Positions 2,170-8,874 of a DNA stretch of 8,874 bases are shown here, in pieces; the first letter of the stretch is position 1, and the number at the start of each line of letters is the position of its first letter. The position numbers and the translations under genes were made by a program. Where the stretch lies: the NCBI GenBank assembly GCA_002411615.1, contig DHOF01000031.1, positions 331-9,204 of the forward strand, written 5' to 3'. The stretch is from Ruminococcaceae bacterium UBA5397. Its GTDB lineage: Bacteria > Bacillota > Clostridia > Oscillospirales > Acutalibacteraceae. A model generated the notes under the pieces. That model worked only from the letters and a program-made list of their open reading frames with translations, was not told where the DNA came from and ran no database searches.

Positions 2170-2955
2170 ATGAACTTTTATCATCAGGATCCAAAAACGG
2201 TTCGCCAAATGATTCGCGAAGGAAAGATTACTTCCCCCACTTCCGGTATGTGTGCCGGGTATGCCCAAGGAAATCTGGTTGTTCTTCCCAAAGAGTATGC
2301 TTATGATTTTTTGCTCTTTACGCAGCGAAATCCGAAACCTTGTCCTGTGTTGGAAGTCAGTGACGTCGGTTCCAGAGAATTTCCCCTAACTGCAAAAGGC
2401 AGCGATATTGCCCAGGATATTCCCCGCTACCGCATTTATGAACACGGAGAACTAAAAGGCGAATATACGGATGTCTCTAAATTTTGGCGAGAGGATCTTG
2501 TAAGCTTTCTTCTGGGCTGCAGCTTCAGTTTTGAAGCGCCGATGATTGAAGAAGGGATTGAAGTCCGCCATATCACACTTGGCTGTAATGTTCCCATGTT
2601 CATTACGAATATTCAATGCAAACCAGCCGGTATTTTCCATGGACCTATGGTTGTCAGCATGCGGCCGATCCCGTACGAAAAGGTAGTCAAGGCCGTTACG
2701 GTAACAGAGCGCTTACCGCAGGTACATGGAACACCGATTCATATCGGCGACCCTTCCCATATTGGAATCAAAGATTTGCAAAAGCCGGATTTTGGAGACC
2801 CTGTTCCGATTCATGAAGGAGAAGTTCCTGTTTTCTGGGCCTGCGGCGTCACTCCACAAGCGGTTGCCATGCAGGTAAAGCCTAGTTTTCTGATTACTCA
2901 TTCTCCCGGACATATGTTTATTACCGATGTGAAAAATTCTCAGCTGGGCGGCTGA
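2170..2955 (+). CDS. DUF1445/YcsI family protein, D-glutamate cyclase-like (putative hydro-lyase)
   Basis: A 261-residue soluble protein, about the length of Bacillus subtilis YcsI. Conserved family blocks are visible in order: TSPTSGMCAGYAQGNLVVLP (21-40), DIPRYRIYEHGEL (83-95), FLLGCSFSFE (113-122), VVSMRPIP (161-168), HGTPIHIGDPSHIGI (186-200), VFWACGVTPQ (221-230) and ITHSPGHMFITD (242-253). The family includes the mammalian mitochondrial D-glutamate cyclase (DGLUCY), which makes 5-oxo-D-proline from D-glutamate; bacterial members are annotated only as putative hydro-lyases. The conserved His/Cys/Asp-rich motifs look catalytic, but exact residues are not known to me. In B. subtilis the homologue sits inside the ycsF-kipA (pxp) operon. 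Here it lies on the opposite strand, facing the 3' end of pxpC and co-transcribed with a carbonic-anhydrase-like gene. A role in glutamate/5-oxoproline chemistry is the best inference, not proven. Confidence 0.9.
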   Translation: MNFYHQDPKTVRQMIREGKITSPTSGMCAGYAQGNLVVLPKEYAYDFLLFTQRNPKPCPVLEVSDVGSREFPLTAKGSDIAQDIPRYRIYEHGELKGEYTDVSKFWREDLVSFLLGCSFSFEAPMIEEGIEVRHITLGCNVPMFITNIQCKPAGIFHGPMVVSMRPIPYEKVVKAVTVTERLPQVHGTPIHIGDPSHIGIKDLQKPDFGDPVPIHEGEVPVFWACGVTPQAVAMQVKPSFLITHSPGHMFITDVKNSQLGG

Positions 2956-2977: not shown

Positions 2978-3015
2978 AATCCCTGTGCAGTTTTTCAGTA
3001 AACCGCACAGGGATT
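2978..3015. terminator. Bidirectional terminator between the DUF1445 gene and pxpC
   Basis: A 16-bp stem (2978-2993 with 3000-3015) with one mismatch and a six-base loop lies between two converging genes. On the plus strand it is followed by ATTTTTAT, and on the minus strand by a T-rich stretch. It sits 22 bases past the DUF1445 stop and 19 bases past the pxpC stop, so it can end both transcripts. Confidence 0.85.
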
Positions 3016-3034: not shown

Positions 3035-3997
3035 TCAGCCTGGCAGACTTAGCATACAGATTTTAAAAATCTTGATCTTATCCGCATACTCTCTAAGCGC
3101 CTGTTGTGCTTTTTCAACCGTTACTTTTTGGAACCGAATAAAGTTTCCCGGCCGCATCTGTCCGACCAGCGGAAGATCTGCTGTAATCACTGTAGCGATT
3201 TTCGTATAGCCGCCGGTAGTCTGACGATCTGCCATCAAAATAATCGGCTTCCCATTTCCAGGAACCTGTACCGCACCGATGACAATTCCGTCGGAAATAA
3301 TATCTCCGCCTTTTTTATGTTCGATTACAGCGCCCTCTAACCGATAACCCATCCGATCAGAATCACTGGTAACCTGATAAGCCGTTCCAAAAAATGTATT
3401 GATTCCCGCTTTTGTAAAGCAGTCGTCCTGCGGTCCAAGAACCGCACGCAACGTTACTTCAGGATAGTAGGAAGGAATCATGCGCGGAGAAGCTTCTTTC
3501 AGCACTGTTTTTGAAAGGACTTCCTCTGAAGCACTCAGCTTGAGTTCATCTCCGGTTTTGAGATTGCGTCCTTCAAAGCCTCCGACTTTTGCCTTCATAT
3601 AAGTCGACTTGCTTCCCATAACCTCTGGAACATCAATTCCTCCTGCAAACGCAATATAAAGTCTTGTGCCAGAAGTCGTCATGCTGAATGAAACCGTATC
3701 GCCTGCTTTTACTCGAATTGCTCTCCACATAAAAGAAGGTTGTGCATTTACTTTCACTTGTGCAGTTGCTCCGGTTACGGCAAAAACTGCATCTCCGGTA
3801 AATTCCATTGTCGGCCCCAGAAGGGTACACTCCAAAACGGCTTCCGTCTCCGGATTTCCGACTAAAAGATTCGCCGCACGAAAGGAATAATCATCCATCA
3901 CACCGGAAACGGACATTCCCGACTGCTGATATTCTATTCGGCCTTTATCCTGAATCGTCGTCAGAGGCCCCGCCGTTTTAATTTTCACACTGCTCAT
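3035..3997 (-). CDS. pxpC: 5-oxoprolinase subunit C (KipA-type, biotin-dependent carboxyltransferase fold)
   Basis: A 320-residue protein, typical length for PxpC/KipA. With PxpA and PxpB it forms the ATP-dependent 5-oxoprolinase that opens 5-oxoproline to glutamate in the cytoplasm. Recognisable sequence includes the N-terminal GPLTTIQDKGRIEYQQSGM (10-28), VSGVMDDYSFRAANLLVGN (30-48), LGPTMEFTGDAVFAVTGA (60-77), SDSDRMGYRLEG (about 212-223) and a C-terminal GYTKIATVITADLP block. The fold is shared with the carboxyltransferase half of urea amidolyase, hence the common annotation as allophanate hydrolase subunit 2. The start ATG overlaps the pxpB stop as ATGA, with AGGAGG upstream, so the two are translationally coupled. 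In B. subtilis KipA was first described with KipI in control of the sporulation kinase KinA; the surrounding genes here favour the metabolic role. It is the last gene of its operon. Confidence 0.93.
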   Translation of the reverse strand: MSSVKIKTAGPLTTIQDKGRIEYQQSGMSVSGVMDDYSFRAANLLVGNPETEAVLECTLLGPTMEFTGDAVFAVTGATAQVKVNAQPSFMWRAIRVKAGDTVSFSMTTSGTRLYIAFAGGIDVPEVMGSKSTYMKAKVGGFEGRNLKTGDELKLSASEEVLSKTVLKEASPRMIPSYYPEVTLRAVLGPQDDCFTKAGINTFFGTAYQVTSDSDRMGYRLEGAVIEHKKGGDIISDGIVIGAVQVPGNGKPIILMADRQTTGGYTKIATVITADLPLVGQMRPGNFIRFQKVTVEKAQQALREYADKIKIFKICMLSLPG

Positions 3998-4737
3998 TTT
4001 ACGGTACCTCCTTCTTTCGGAAAATAATGATACTCATAGGTGCCGTTCTTCACAGCCTCTTCAATCGACTGATATTCTTTTTGATCAATCGGGACAAACC
4101 GAATATAATCACCCGCATGATGCAAAATTGGCGGATTGCGCTGCGGATCATAGAGCAAAATTGGTGTTTTTCCGATCAACTGCCAGCCCCCAGGGCTATC
4201 AATCGAATAAATTCCGGTCTGAGAACCCGCAATGCCGACGGATCCTCCAGGAATCTTCGTCCGCGGCGTTTTAAGACGAGGAGTCGCAATTTTTTGATCC
4301 ATCCCTCCAAGATAAGAAAATCCGGGAGTAAAGCCCAACATATAGACGAGATAATCCCTTCCGGAATGAATTTTTATGACCTCTTCTTCTGTAAGGCCGC
4401 TATGTTCACACACAAATCCGAGATCCGGACCAAGTTCTCCGCCATAAAGCGTTGGTATTTCCAAAATATTCGGACTTGGAAGATCCATATTCTGAAGATT
4501 CTCTTCCAATCCTTGTAAGGTTTCTAGGATTTTCTCATAGGGGCACTGCAACGGATCATACTGCACCAGCAGAGACCGATAGGTCGGATTCATTGCCCGA
4601 ATAAACGGAAACTTTTTTTGTTCGATTGCTAAATACATTCCACGTACTTTCGCACTGATCTCTTCAGAAATTTCATTTCCAAATTCGACGACAATACTGG
4701 AATCTCCTGCAATCAAATAATGTGCTTTTTCATACAT
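3994..4737 (-). CDS. pxpB: 5-oxoprolinase subunit B (KipI-type)
   Basis: A 247-residue protein of the KipI/allophanate hydrolase subunit 1 family, the usual length. Motifs seen are YLVYMLGFTPGFSYLGGMD (129-147), TPRTKIPGGSVGIAG (157-171) and the strongly conserved SPGGWQLIGKTP (181-192), followed by the beta-strand end DYIRFVPI (210-217). Its fold pairs with that of PxpC, and the two together supply part of the 5-oxoproline-cleaving, ATP-using complex. The ATG at 4735-4737 is preceded by TAGGAGA about 12 bases upstream. The gene starts 21 bases after the transporter stop and overlaps pxpC by four bases. No biotin carboxylase or biotin carrier gene is present in the window, consistent with PxpABC working without carboxylation. 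An alternative role as a kinase inhibitor, as first described for B. subtilis KipI, cannot be excluded by sequence alone. Confidence 0.93.
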   Translation of the reverse strand: MYEKAHYLIAGDSSIVVEFGNEISEEISAKVRGMYLAIEQKKFPFIRAMNPTYRSLLVQYDPLQCPYEKILETLQGLEENLQNMDLPSPNILEIPTLYGGELGPDLGFVCEHSGLTEEEVIKIHSGRDYLVYMLGFTPGFSYLGGMDQKIATPRLKTPRTKIPGGSVGIAGSQTGIYSIDSPGGWQLIGKTPILLYDPQRNPPILHHAGDYIRFVPIDQKEYQSIEEAVKNGTYEYHYFPKEGGTVK

Positions 4738-4758: not shown

Positions 4759-5967
4759 TTATGCAAAGAGTTTGCCAAGGCTGCCAAGAGAAGTAATGCC
4801 CAGATAAGCGGAAAGAATCACGACGATAATTCCAAGGACAAAAAGGCTTGTCGGATGATGATAGGTCTTCCCCATGATTTCCGGCTTCTGCGAAGCAATT
4901 AGGCAGATTCCCAGAGTCAGCGGAAGAATCAATCCATTGAGTGCACCTGCCAAAACCAAAAGCTGTGCTGGCTGACCAACCACTACCATTACAAGAGTGG
5001 AAAGCACAATAAATCCGACTGTAAACCATTTTTCATACTTTGCAACGGTTTTATTGAGTGTTTTCAGGAAGGAAACAGAAGTATAGGCTGCACCGACAAC
5101 AGAAGTAATTGACGCGGAAAGCAGAACCAATCCGAAGAAACGATAGCCAAGTTCACCGGCGCCCTGCTTAAATGCATCTGCAGCAGGATTAGCAGGATCC
5201 AATGAGACCCCTTTTACCACTACGCCAAGAATTGCTAGGAACAGAAGAATACGAACAAGCGTTGCAACGCCGATTCCCATCATGGAACTCTTTTTAATTT
5301 GTCCAAGGTTTTCTTCCTTCGTAATCCCAGCGTCAATCAGACGATGCGCGCCGGAAAACGTGATATATCCGCCGACGGTGCCGCCCAGAAGGGTCAGAAT
5401 TGCAGGGAATAATGTAGAATAACCAACAGAAGGAACAAAGGTTTCTTTTACGGCCATCCCCACCGGAGGCTGAACAATAAAGATCACAATGAAAATAACT
5501 ATGATCATTACGCCGCCAAGAACTTTTGTAAGCGTATCCATTGCTTTTCCAGCGTTTTTAAATAGGAAAATCACGACGCCCAGGGCACCGGTAATAATAT
5601 ATCCCCATTTTAAATCCATACCAAAGATGGTATTAAAGCCCAGTGCACCGCCGCCAACATTTCCAATATTAAAGACCAACCCGCCAAGAACAATCAGCGC
5701 AGCAATGACATAGCCCATGCCCGGCAGCACTTTATTGGCAACATCCTGCCCGCGCAAACCTGAAACGCACAAAACTCTCCAGACATTAAGCTGTACGACA
5801 ATTGAGAGGATAACTGAAACCAAAATAACAAAGCCAAACCCGCCCTGATAATCATTGACAAATTTTGCTGTCTGTGTTAAGAATCCTGGACCGATTGCAG
5901 AGGTTGCCATAATAAAAGCGGCACCTAAAAGCACCCCAAAATTTGAATTTGATTTGTTCTTTTCCAT
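4759..5967 (-). CDS. NRAMP-related membrane transporter (YcsG-like) of the 5-oxoprolinase operon
   Basis: A 402-residue polytopic membrane protein with about 11 hydrophobic segments, related to NRAMP divalent-metal transporters (LeuT/APC fold). Segment 1 reads TSAIGPGFLTQTAKF (22-36), where true NRAMP proteins have the metal-binding DPGN. Segment 6 reads GGTVGGYITFSGAHRL (195-210), where they have the metal-binding Met of the M-P-H motif. Both metal-ligand motifs are therefore replaced, so transport of a metal ion is doubtful. The homologue YcsG holds the same place in the B. subtilis pxp cluster, and operon membership suggests uptake of 5-oxoproline or a related acid; this is inference. The start is ATG at 5965-5967, with AAGGGG 11 bases upstream. 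A longer frame beginning with TTG at 5997 would lack a binding site and adds ten non-conserved residues. It lies 34 bases after pxpA and 21 before pxpB. Confidence 0.88.
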   Translation of the reverse strand: MEKNKSNSNFGVLLGAAFIMATSAIGPGFLTQTAKFVNDYQGGFGFVILVSVILSIVVQLNVWRVLCVSGLRGQDVANKVLPGMGYVIAALIVLGGLVFNIGNVGGGALGFNTIFGMDLKWGYIITGALGVVIFLFKNAGKAMDTLTKVLGGVMIIVIFIVIFIVQPPVGMAVKETFVPSVGYSTLFPAILTLLGGTVGGYITFSGAHRLIDAGITKEENLGQIKKSSMMGIGVATLVRILLFLAILGVVVKGVSLDPANPAADAFKQGAGELGYRFFGLVLLSASITSVVGAAYTSVSFLKTLNKTVAKYEKWFTVGFIVLSTLVMVVVGQPAQLLVLAGALNGLILPLTLGICLIASQKPEIMGKTYHHPTSLFVLGIIVVILSAYLGITSLGSLGKLFA

Positions 5968-6001
5968 ACTGGAGGATTCCCCTTTCTTTATTCCCAAAAA
6001 T

Positions 6002-6772
6002 TCAGCGAAGCCCTTCCACTAAATTACAGAGTTTGATTCCCTCTTTTTGCAGGCTTTCCCGAATATTCTTTACGAATTCCACTGCTTCGGGCGTATCTCC
6101 ATGCACACAAATTGACTGCGGAGAAAGCTGCACAGTTTCCCCCGTAATCGCAATCACCTGATGCTTCTTGACCATCCCAATGATTCTCTTGATACACTCG
6201 TCTACATCATGAATAACTGCTCCCGGAGTTCCGCGTGGAACAAGGCTGCCATCCGCCTGATAAGCACGGTCTGCAAAGACTTCACTTGCTGCGCGCAACC
6301 CAATATCGGATGCTGCACGAATCATCTGACTGCCGGAAAGAGCCATCAGAATCAAATTAGGATCGACTTCATAAATTCCCTCGGCAATTCCACGCGCAAG
6401 ATCATAATCCTTTCCTGCCATATTATAAAGAGCCCCATGTGGCTTTACGTGCTGCAGTTCGACTCCGCTTGCATCACAGAACGCACGCAGTGCACCAAGC
6501 TGGTACTTCACATAAGCTTTTGCCTCGGCAGGTGTAATGGTCATCTTGCGGCGTCCAAAACCCATTAGATCCGGAAATCCAGGATGTGCACCTACCGCAA
6601 CATGATTTTTTTTGCACATTTTTACTGTCTCGTCCATTACGCAGGGGTCTCCCGCATGAAAACCACAGCCGACGTTTGCAGAAGTAATAAATGGAATGAT
6701 CTCTTGATCTCTCCCAATTTTGTAAGCGCCAAAGCTTTCCCCTAAATCACAATTCAAATCAATCCAACTCAT
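6002..6772 (-). CDS. pxpA: 5-oxoprolinase subunit A (LamB/YcsF family)
   Basis: A 256-residue TIM-barrel-like protein of the LamB/YcsF family, full length. Family signatures run throughout: the N-terminal [12 protein letters not shown] (4-15), [13 protein letters not shown] (31-43), [15 protein letters not shown] (61-75), VKPHGALYN (109-117), [17 protein letters not shown] (164-180) and SICVHGDTP (220-228). The conserved acidic residues and histidines (D5, D9, E12, H39, H63, H112, H224) are likely catalytic or substrate-binding. With PxpB and PxpC it hydrolyses 5-oxoproline to glutamate using ATP. The chosen start is ATG at 6770-6772, with AAAGGAG ten bases upstream. An in-frame GTG three codons earlier sits almost on top of the binding site and is rejected. 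It is the first gene of the operon and has its own candidate promoter. Confidence 0.95.
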
Positions 6773-6803
6773 ATGCAGCACTCTCCTTTAAAAAATAAAG
6801 TAT

Positions 6804-6832
6804 AATATAGAACTTAACGATCTCTATGTTAA
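6804..6832 (-). promoter_or_regulatory. Probable promoter of the pxpA operon
   Basis: The minus strand shows a TTAACA -35 box (6827-6832), a 17-base spacer and a TATATT -10 box (6804-6809). The predicted transcript starts near 6797, leaving a leader of only about 25 bases with the AAAGGAG site. That leaves no room for a riboswitch or leader hairpin, so control would be at the level of initiation. A second -10-like TATTAT overlaps at a less favourable spacing. Confidence 0.55.
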
Positions 6833-6985
6833 CACAACAACTTATAAAAAATCAAATAATATCTGTCGATTCTTATATAGAATTTATAATGTATTTTTTG
6901 GATAAATTATCTAAAATTGATTTTTTTATCATTTGCTTTTGGAATTTGACTCTCTCAAAGTATAAACAAATCAAAATTTATGCGA
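6833..6985. other. Very AT-rich intergenic region upstream of the pxpA promoter
   Basis: About 150 bases between the pxpA promoter and the terminator of the regulator gene, markedly more AT-rich than the surrounding genes. I see no credible gene: a short plus-strand frame starting at 6826 has no ribosome binding site and encodes a low-complexity Ile/Phe/Lys-rich peptide. The only clear small symmetry is TTTGA-N5-TCAAA at 6945-6959, a possible but unsupported protein-binding site. The region may act as an UP-element or regulator-binding DNA for the pxp operon. Confidence 0.5.
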
Positions 6986-7027
6986 ACAAAAAGCCTCTGG
7001 GGAATTATTTTCCCAGAGGCTTTTTGT
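6986..7027. terminator. Strong bidirectional hairpin terminator after the ANTAR gene
   Basis: A perfect 16-bp stem (6986-7001 with 7012-7027) with a ten-base loop. The arms include CCTCTGGG, flanked by A5 on one side and T5 on the other. It lies 9 bases past the stop codon of the ANTAR regulator on the minus strand, where its 3' arm ends in TTTTTGTT. It marks the end of the glutamine synthetase/ANTAR transcript and separates it from the pxp operon. Confidence 0.9.
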
Positions 7028-7036
7028 AAAAATATT

Positions 7037-7606
7037 CTATCCTTCATAAGTTCTTAAGATATCTTCTGCAATGTCTAAAACGGAAAGCCGCTGATCCATT
7101 GCCTGCTTTTCAATAAAGTGGTGGGCCTCCTGCTCCGTCAAATGGCGATACTGTACCAAAGCACATTTTGCTCTGCCAACTTCTCTTAGCTCATTCACTT
7201 TTTTCTGTAGGCGGCTATTCTCTTTTTGCAAAATTGCAAGGCGCTTATTGGCAATTAAAGACAGACGCAAAGACTGATAAAAGATTGTTCTGTTAATTGG
7301 CTTTGAAACAACAATAACACCTTCATCTTCTACACGAAGCGATACAGAATCTGCCAGTTCACTTTTGACAACCATCAAAACACCAGCAGAAGTCGTGTTG
7401 CTCAAATCAATCGCCAATTCATGCCCGAATTCATCTCTTAAAGGGGCATTGATTACAACCAAATCATAAGGCATTTCCAAAAGGATTCTACGGGCTTCTC
7501 CGCCGGAAGCTGCAATTCCAATACGGTTAAATTCATGTGCATTTAAAAAATCAGAAAAATATTTTTGTCCTTTACTCGTACTGGACACAATCAATACGCT
7601 ATCCAC
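7037..7606 (-). CDS. ANTAR-domain antitermination regulator with degenerate receiver domain
   Basis: A 189-residue two-domain protein. Residues 1 to about 118 have a response-regulator (receiver) fold pattern, with SVLIVSS at the first strand, DLVVINAPL (48-56) at the phosphorylation loop and VSKP (100-103) near the end. The acidic pair is replaced by S8-S9 and the phospho-acceptor Asp by N53; only the lysine K102 remains. Phosphorylation is therefore unlikely. A coiled-coil linker (about 118-143) leads to a C-terminal ANTAR RNA-binding domain (about 129-186) with CALVQYRHLTEQEAHHF (148-164), KQAMD (167-171) and IAEDIL (179-184). ANTAR proteins bind paired hexaloop RNA hairpins and prevent termination. 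The start is GTG at 7604-7606, with AAAGGGG seven bases upstream. It follows the glutamine synthetase gene by 43 bases and is likely co-transcribed, pointing to nitrogen control. The signal it senses is unknown. Confidence 0.92.
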   Translation of the reverse strand: MDSVLIVSSTSKGQKYFSDFLNAHEFNRIGIAASGGEARRILLEMPYDLVVINAPLRDEFGHELAIDLSNTTSAGVLMVVKSELADSVSLRVEDEGVIVVSKPINRTIFYQSLRLSLIANKRLAILQKENSRLQKKVNELREVGRAKCALVQYRHLTEQEAHHFIEKQAMDQRLSVLDIAEDILRTYEG

Positions 7607-7649: not shown

Positions 7650-8874
7650 TTACATCCGCAAAAAATAGGTTCCCATCTCGTATTTTCTAGTATCACCACA
7701 GGTCAGATATTTTTCCCATTCCTTACGCTTCTCTGTAAGATAACAGTTCAAAAGGGGACTCGGAACATAGCGATGAACAAATTCGCTCTTTTCTGCAAGG
7801 TCCAGTGCTTCTTCCAGACTTTCCGGCAGCATCTCTAAATGCTGCAATTCTTTTTCCGACGCGGTAAAGAGGTTCCGATTTTCCGGTTCACAGAGAGGCA
7901 GCTTTTCTCGAATTCCTTCCATACCGGCATAAAGGAGCAATGCAAAGCTCAAATAAGGGCTGCAGCCGGGGTCCGGACTTCTCAGCTCCATACGAGCATA
8001 AGAACCCCAAGAAGCTGGGATTCGTACCAGTTGTGAACGATTCTGATGAGACCAGCTCACATATTTGGGCGCTTCAAAATTTCCAAATCTTGCATAAGAA
8101 TTTGGAACTGGATTCAAAAAGCAGGTGATCTCACGAATTCGGCGCAAAATGCCCGCCAAAAAGCTCTCTGCAATGGGATTATGCTCACCAGGGTCGAGCT
8201 TAAAAAGATTTTCTCCATCGCAGTAAAGAGAAAGATTAATATGAAGCCCGCTCCCGCTTTCATTCTCCAGTGGTTTTGGCATAAAAGTTGCATAGAGTCC
8301 CCCAGCAGCAGCAATCGATTTGACAGCCGCTTTAAAAGCCACCAAGCGGTCAGCTGCCGTCAAAATATCACTGTACTTAAAATCAATCTCATTTTGCCCT
8401 GGCCCAAGCTCATGACGGCTGCTTTCAGGGCGCATTCCCATCTCTTCGAGACTGAGACAAATTTGCCGCCTAACGTTCTCCCCTTTATCATTTGGTGCTA
8501 CATCACAATAAGTTCCATGATCCTGAGGAATCAAAGTTGGATTTCCATCTTCATCTGTCTGAAAAAGATAAAATTCGCATTCAGTGCCCGCTTTGCAGAC
8601 AAGTCCAAATTCATCGAGAATTTGAGCGCGGGCGCTTCGCAGCAAAGTTCTGCAGTCTCCTACAAAGGGAGAACCGTCTGGTGTACGGATATTACAGAAA
8701 AGACGCACAACCTGTCCCTCAGCGGGCCGCCATGGCATAGGGGTCAACGTATTGGCATCCGGCACCAAAAACAAATCAGACTCATTTGCATTCAGAAATC
8801 CACGAACTATACTGGCATCAAAAGAGATTCCTAAATCAAACGCACGAATTAATTCCGAAGGCATTACGGAAACA
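7650..8874 (-). CDS. glnA: Glutamine synthetase, type I (5' end beyond the window)
   Basis: The last 407 residues of a type I glutamine synthetase; roughly 30-40 N-terminal residues lie past the right edge. The frame stays open to the edge, and the ATG at 8862-8864 lies inside the conserved beta-grasp domain, so it is not the start. Catalytic landmarks are all visible: FDASIVRGF, the metal ligands in TECEFYLF and GPGQNEIDF, SGSGLHINLSL, the flap glutamate in NFEAPKYVSW, and the arginines in QNRSQLVRIPAS and ARMELRSPDP. The adenylylation motif and extra segment of the proteobacterial GSI-beta class are not evident, suggesting feedback and protein-level control as in Bacillus. The C-terminus (TRKYEMGTYFLRM) departs from the common WEIDRY ending. 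A gamma-glutamyl-amine ligase activity is a less likely alternative. An ANTAR regulator follows after 43 bases in the same direction. Confidence 0.92.
   Translation of the reverse strand, partial: VSVMPSELIRAFDLGISFDASIVRGFLNANESDLFLVPDANTLTPMPWRPAEGQVVRLFCNIRTPDGSPFVGDCRTLLRSARAQILDEFGLVCKAGTECEFYLFQTDEDGNPTLIPQDHGTYCDVAPNDKGENVRRQICLSLEEMGMRPESSRHELGPGQNEIDFKYSDILTAADRLVAFKAAVKSIAAAGGLYATFMPKPLENESGSGLHINLSLYCDGENLFKLDPGEHNPIAESFLAGILRRIREITCFLNPVPNSYARFGNFEAPKYVSWSHQNRSQLVRIPASWGSYARMELRSPDPGCSPYLSFALLLYAGMEGIREKLPLCEPENRNLFTASEKELQHLEMLPESLEEALDLAEKSEFVHRYVPSPLLNCYLTEKRKEWEKYLTCGDTRKYEMGTYFLRM

Follow-up and report, generated by a model that had tools for sequence, protein, structure and literature searches.

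An NRAMP-fold carrier that has lost the metal ligands of its family is probably the 5-oxoproline importer of a 5-oxoprolinase operon

What does a member of the NRAMP family carry when its gene lies among those of 5-oxoprolinase? The question is raised by a gene, pxpT, at 4759..5967 on the minus strand of the window, the 8,874-nucleotide stretch of DNA analysed here, whose type of product is classed by databases as a manganese/iron transporter. A first-pass annotation had placed it between pxpA and pxpB in a pxp operon, and the open reading frames, Pfam and the NCBI models agree. The frame is open from an ATG at 5967 (a TTG start at 5997 is also possible), and the 402-residue product matches Nramp (PF01566) with 106.2 bits over residues 46-368. 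The gene is the second in the order pxpA-T-pxpB-pxpC, which runs from 6781 to 3035 entirely on the minus strand, and all three 5-oxoprolinase subunit genes are present: pxpA (6002..6781; PF03746 at 351 bits and NF003814 at 378 bits, above its cut-off), pxpB (3994..4737; TIGR00370 at 209 bits, above its cut-off) and pxpC (3035..3997; TIGR00724 at 340 bits, above its cut-off, and the PxpC model NF045499 at 276 bits, below its cut-off of 500). By consensus scan only, a promoter-like site (TTAACA-17-TATATT, 6804..6832, minus strand) precedes pxpA and a strong terminator-like hairpin (2978..3015, minus strand) lies right behind pxpC. Convergent with the operon, on the plus strand at 2170..2955, is a gene of the D-glutamate-cyclase family (PF07286, DUF1445), a frequent pxp partner across many loci. 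The family of the window gene (YcsG/PxpT, here T1) has already been proposed as a 5-oxoproline importer, so this reading is not new, and a database record (P0006) for a protein 88% identical to it already bears the name '5-oxoproline transporter'.

Immediately upstream of the operon lie an ANTAR-domain regulator gene (7037-7606) and a glutamine-synthetase-like gene (7650-8864), an arrangement that suggests nitrogen control. The ANTAR gene has its own terminator-like hairpin; a hairpin at 6985-7027 is taken to be this terminator and not a riboswitch, as no Rfam family reached its gathering score anywhere in the window, and no ANTAR-type RNA was identified there. At the other end of the window an apparent heavy-metal P-type ATPase start (1-354), assigned by eye with no Pfam match, stands behind an ArsR/SmtB-type metalloregulator gene (421-792). 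As PxpB is found in 0 of 10 genomes listed from the order or class to which the window belongs, the pxp operon may have been acquired by horizontal transfer.

Every tested metal ligand of the canonical NRAMPs (DraNramp, EcoDMT, E. coli MntH) is replaced in the window protein, the assignment of ligand residues following the published accounts (PMC8806188, PMC12873925) and the residue numbers being the protein's own. In an alignment that includes E. coli MntH among others, the TM1 break reads GPGF (residues 26-29; 5881..5892, minus strand) in place of canonical DPGN, with Asp replaced by Gly26 and Asn by Phe29, and the TM6 break has Gly199-Gly200-Tyr201 (5365..5373, minus strand) in place of Met-Pro-His. 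This bears out the earlier observation of missing Asp, Asn and Met ligands, and two further replacements are added to it, TM3 Glu (Glu134 of DraNramp) by Asn103 (5659..5661, minus strand) and TM10 Gln by Gly341. The TM1 Asp and the TM3 Glu matter in relatives: mutation of the former is reported to compromise transport strongly, even in the NRMT branch (PMC8806188), and the latter is reportedly required in BfraNramp. Judged from the alignments, the ligand loss in T1 is not chance, because among distinct relatives longer than 350 residues GPGF is present in 227 of 228, the sole exception (L095) reading GPVF, and GGYI followed by (H/N)R in all 228, in a pool of which 120 were nearest relatives and 80 were loci found by TM6 and TM3 patterns, so that these two stretches were partly selected by the patterns, among which GPGF did not figure. 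Five relatives do contain the letters DPGN, placed in the TM7-TM8 loop and not in TM1. The TM6b pair His208-Arg209 (5341..5346, minus strand), invariant in alignment A2, provides candidate carboxylate or gating residues.

The window protein has in common with canonical NRAMP/SLC11 transporters the LeuT-type NRAMP fold and PF01566. Its AlphaFold2 model, built with 59 relatives (pLDDT 89.3, pTM 0.87), matches best among PDB folds the integrative YcsG-FabL model 9a52 (TM 0.93, 54% identity); EleNRMT and DraNramp come next (TM about 0.8), followed by amino-acid carriers, AdiC and ApcT among them. Amino-acid carriers of this fold hold a carboxylate, and IGPGF may resemble their GSG break, a likeness that stays conditional because hhalign gave no meaningful score for the GPG break against AdiC, CadB and YjeH (probability 9% or less in every run, with a 3-sequence APC profile). 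By profile (16 relatives) the closest solved sequence is EleNRMT (7qia, E 2.1e-14), and a single-sequence search of PDB chain sequences with the window protein returned none at E <= 10. Both the window protein and the NRMT magnesium transporters, to which EleNRMT belongs, lack the canonical Met; however, the NRMTs are described as keeping the TM1 Asp (DxxG) together with TxxA/T in TM6 (PMC8806188), where the window protein has GPGF and GGY. It should fall within the 'G-motif 3' group of Nramp-related proteins, which holds B. subtilis MntG (Ray, Berry and Gaudet, preprint PMC12873925); in the portion of the preprint text covered here, that group is not tied to 5-oxoproline and other Nramp-related groups are termed uncharacterized.

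The genomic setting separates the Asp-less T1 carriers from metal-type NRAMPs. Across 299 sampled genomes of the phylum, with linkage defined as at least two of pxpA, pxpB and pxpC nearby and with flanks of 6-8 kb read, shorter toward contig ends, T1 loci other than the window's own are pxp-linked in 25 of 25 cases. Among carriers with a readable TM1, all 33 that read GPGF or GPGT have pxp genes next to them (GPGF 23/23; GPGT 10/10, these loci drawn from the sample plus one further search), and 4 further partial carrier pieces are all in pxp-linked loci. None of 74 Asp-keeping controls does (DPGN 0/42, NRMT-like 0/32), the controls being part of the sample's Asp-keeping matches, several of which have short flanks only; L183, one of 20 loci first chosen as canonical controls, is NRMT-like and is counted as such. 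G143:C53 (L044), a candidate T1 protein, was dropped, as it keeps the TM1 Asp. Loss of the Asp does not by itself signify 5-oxoproline, since other Asp-less proteins (3 GPGS, 1 GPAS, 1 GTGT) are pxp-linked in 0 of 5 cases. When named loci were fetched by carrier similarity alone, 76 of 80 were pxp-linked, and in a plasmid collection 8 of 9 T1 loci were; the four unlinked named loci (L091, L095, L160 and, on a 4.2-kb contig, L155) and the plasmid exception, Ilyobacter, count against the 5-oxoproline reading. The linkage outlives rearrangement, as 105 loci display 23 gene-order patterns.

A second Asp-less clade, T2, with GPGT in TM1, occurs at pxp loci too. T2 proteins are about 25% identical to T1, score more than 320 bits with PF01566 and in alignment are without the Asp, Asn and Met ligands; one member (L217) passes the NCBI cut-off for 'Nramp family divalent metal transporter'. 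The 10 T2 genes read in Bacillota are all in pxp loci. The earlier suggestion of a distinct substrate branch of the NRAMP family agrees with the GPGF clade but is too narrow, the GPGT branch being pxp-linked as well. Indeed, three genomes of one genus share a near-same locus in which the carrier is T1 in one (G107) and T2 in the other two (G136, G208), the T1 and T2 proteins being 24.6% identical. On one side of the swap the pxpABC products have 90-98% identity to those of G107, and on the other, at 86-87% DNA identity, stand a CRP-type regulator, a pyroglutamyl peptidase (PF01470; such enzymes release 5-oxoproline from peptides), DUF979 and DUF969. A sodium:solute symporter gene, found in the G107 and G136 loci and absent from the G208 stretch, is a rival transporter at the first two. 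Pyroglutamyl peptidase followed by the DUF979 and DUF969 membrane proteins is also seen beside pxp genes at L045 (10201-12426), L225 (9476-11712) and L224 (8135-10369), and DUF979 with DUF969 may form a further carrier of pyroglutamyl compounds.

Co-occurrence follows the same line. Of the 7 genomes in the family of G107, G136 and G208, five have PxpB, two of them along with T1 and three along with T2; the remaining two are without PxpB and have neither carrier, nor any PF01566 match at all. Across the sample PxpB is present in 91 of 299 genomes, among them all 25 T1 and all 8 recognised T2 genomes. T1 and T2 occur together in 0 listed genomes, which is not significant (P 0.06 by chance).

Outside Bacillota, T2 keeps different company. 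HyuA is the next gene in 8 of 9 haloarchaeal T2 plasmid loci read; HyuB is present in 7 of these 8 (L214 stops at the record end) and an Asp/Glu/hydantoin-racemase-like gene in 5 of 8. The Natrononativus locus (L241) is without HyuA, HyuB and the racemase-like gene, as are the bacterial plasmid loci L242 and L243. The nearest NCBI model for HyuA/HyuB of L215 is caprolactamase, with a score below its cut-off. Asp-less NRAMP carriers are thus associated with two lactam-opening systems that are unrelated to each other, PxpABC and HyuA/HyuB falling into different Pfam families. The pxp linkage of T2 is apparently new: in a literature search that left subscription papers largely outside, we found neither a tie of T2 to pxp or hyu genes, nor the T1/T2 swap, nor an NRAMP joined with hydantoinase in an operon, nor the pxp reading of the mum locus given below.

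The substrate of the YcsG/PxpT family is disputed, manganese versus 5-oxoproline. B. subtilis YcsG falls in the same T1 clade as the window protein (via the B. tequilensis member, L102), has the same place in a pxp operon and carries both GPGF and GGYI; the gene order is A-T-B-C in the window and A-T-D-B-C at the B. tequilensis locus. Ogura et al. (PMC10448178) report from whole-cell work that YcsG imports Mn, rename it MntG, describe binding of MntR to the B. subtilis pxpA promoter, and hold that earlier 5-oxoproline data might be polar. In C. glutamicum, deletion of pxpT is reported to abolish growth on 5-oxoproline, which was restored in trans, and the authors leave metal transport by PxpT possible (PMC13274462). 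PxpT is given there as 50% identical to YcsG, an identity from which its motifs are presumed; the published pxpT primer had 0 matches to genome contigs. The same B. subtilis protein is therefore called both a Mn transporter, MntG, and a 5-oxoproline importer, and the evidence gathered here favours 5-oxoproline.

The other published metal transporter of this type is A. baumannii MumT, which Juttukonda et al. (PMC5050338) describe as importing Mn and as part of a urea operon, also from whole-cell data: a mumT deletion mutant had less Mn, a loss reversed in trans, and resisted 3 mM Mn. An A. baumannii record of the plasmid collection (L034, 6678-14139) encodes, in order, a LysR regulator, a T1 protein, PxpA (PF03746, above the NCBI PxpA subfamily cut-off), a D-glutamate-cyclase relative, a PxpB-PxpC fusion and a biotin carboxylase with a biotin domain. 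Its T1 protein has GPGF and GGYI, as in the window protein, and lies in the 45% identity range with the B. badius member. The order matches the mumR-mumTLUHC layout as published (PMC5050338), and from this layout, with A1S_1266 itself outside the comparison, we infer that L034 is the mum locus. The enzymes beside MumT would then look like a 5-oxoprolinase set plus biotin carboxylase, which suggests that the urea-operon reading of mum deserves a second look. Such a pxp reading leaves the published Mn and urea phenotypes standing; the change in Mn seen with MumT could be indirect, through glutamate metabolism or co-transport.

We therefore consider it likely that the window T1 gene encodes an NRAMP-fold secondary carrier that imports 5-oxoproline and not metal. 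This is favoured because the ligands are lost clade-wide, because linkage is 33/33 against 0/74 and extends to 76/80 named loci, because T2 is also found in pxp operons, exchanges with T1 and, like it, co-occurs with pxpB, and because the C. glutamicum pxpT deletion is reported to block growth on 5-oxoproline (PMC13274462). The first-pass annotation had suggested 5-oxoproline from gene position; this fits all the neighbourhoods and the PxpT growth phenotype, although the name had already been given. In the mechanism we propose, T1 would import 5-oxoproline (pyroglutamate) and hand it to the co-encoded, ATP-dependent PxpABC for conversion to glutamate. The central site between the broken TM1 and TM6, with Asp, Asn, Met, Glu and Gln gone, has Gly-Pro-Gly and Gly-Gly instead, and backbone amides left exposed at both glycine-rich breaks could, jointly with the neutral Asn103 of TM3, accommodate and hold the carboxylate and lactam of 5-oxoproline.

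Three other explanations were weighed. A related substrate (5-oxo-D-proline, another lactam or a hydantoin), or export of excess 5-oxoproline, is unlikely: the frequent partnership with a D-glutamate-cyclase relative, the haloarchaeal T2 genes preceding HyuA/HyuB with a racemase-like gene in 5/8, and HyuA/B scores below the cut-off of the caprolactamase models are consistent with it, whereas the reported need of C. glutamicum for PxpT in growth on external 5-oxo-L-proline argues for import of the L-form in that relative. A dual carrier that moves 5-oxoproline along with a divalent metal (as a complex, for instance) by way of a new site would account for both the Mn measurements and the growth on 5-oxoproline, and the invariant His208 and several Asn remain; however, the alignment is without an apparent metal site and published co-transport was not found in the literature examined, making this reading less likely still. 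Least credible is a manganese importer supplying Mn2+ to adjacent nitrogen enzymes, for although membership of PF01566, the whole-cell Mn measurements reported for YcsG (PMC10448178) and MumT (PMC5050338) and the binding of MntR at pxpA speak for it, and qualify the earlier judgement that Mn/Fe transport is unlikely, the TM1 Asp and TM3 Glu needed in relatives are both gone, pxp linkage is found in 0/74 Asp-keeping NRAMPs examined, T2, a carrier clade of unrelated sequence, replaces T1 at a pxp locus, and the two pxp-less genomes of the 7-genome family are without any PF01566 match.

If T1 is a 5-oxoproline carrier, how did the metal transporters of the same family arise? In a tree of 80 proteins and 410 columns T1 forms one clade with support of 100/100 (19 T1 rows, including the window protein and B. 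tequilensis L102), and the test proposed in the first-pass annotation, whether pxp-linked members sharing the replacements group together, comes out positive. T2 is a separate clade (99/97). T1 and T2 held as one clade are not rejected (p-AU 0.252), so two independent pxp recruitments are not claimed. A branch with support of only 80/88 sets all Asp-keeping proteins, canonical and NRMT-like, apart from the rest, and the Asp/Gly state needs one change on the tree. With the Asp-less outgroup as root the TM1 Asp would be a gain, the single-gain reading depending on that root; this agrees with a published rooted tree in which Nramp-related proteins are reported as paraphyletic to canonical NRAMPs (PMC12873925).

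These observations suggest a textbook metal-transporter family grown out of organic-solute carriers. It is conceivable, though we hold it somewhat short of probable, that the first NRAMPs carried small cyclic amides and carboxylates, that the T1 (GPGF), T2 (GPGT) and GPGN/GPGS clades still carry organic solutes, with T1 and T2 as interchangeable 5-oxoproline/lactam carriers serving the unrelated PxpABC and HyuA/HyuB, and that metal transport arose late and once, through gain of the TM1 Asp in the ancestor of the NRMT and canonical proteins; on this view the 'manganese importers' MntG and MumT would carry 5-oxoproline. The prediction is that thousands of 'divalent metal transporter' labels, haloarchaeal ones included, denote lactam carriers. 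A third Asp-less NRAMP-related type (GPGN, GPGS, GPAS) is encoded in the window's own genome (L082 / L001 1243-2652) and at L227-L230, and may carry another organic acid. A DapA-family gene lies near it in 5 of 5 stretches, a tie to be taken as a lead only because the outgroup locus L079 has one too.

Two minor observations concern the T1-pxp operons themselves. They are carried on Klebsiella plasmids, with 93 records giving a match, and on 7 Enterobacter records; one Klebsiella locus (L038) was read. A biotin carboxylase lies within the operon in 5 of 25 sample loci and 10 of 80 named loci (e.g. L036, L037, L038, L043), hinting at a biotin-dependent form of 5-oxoprolinase.
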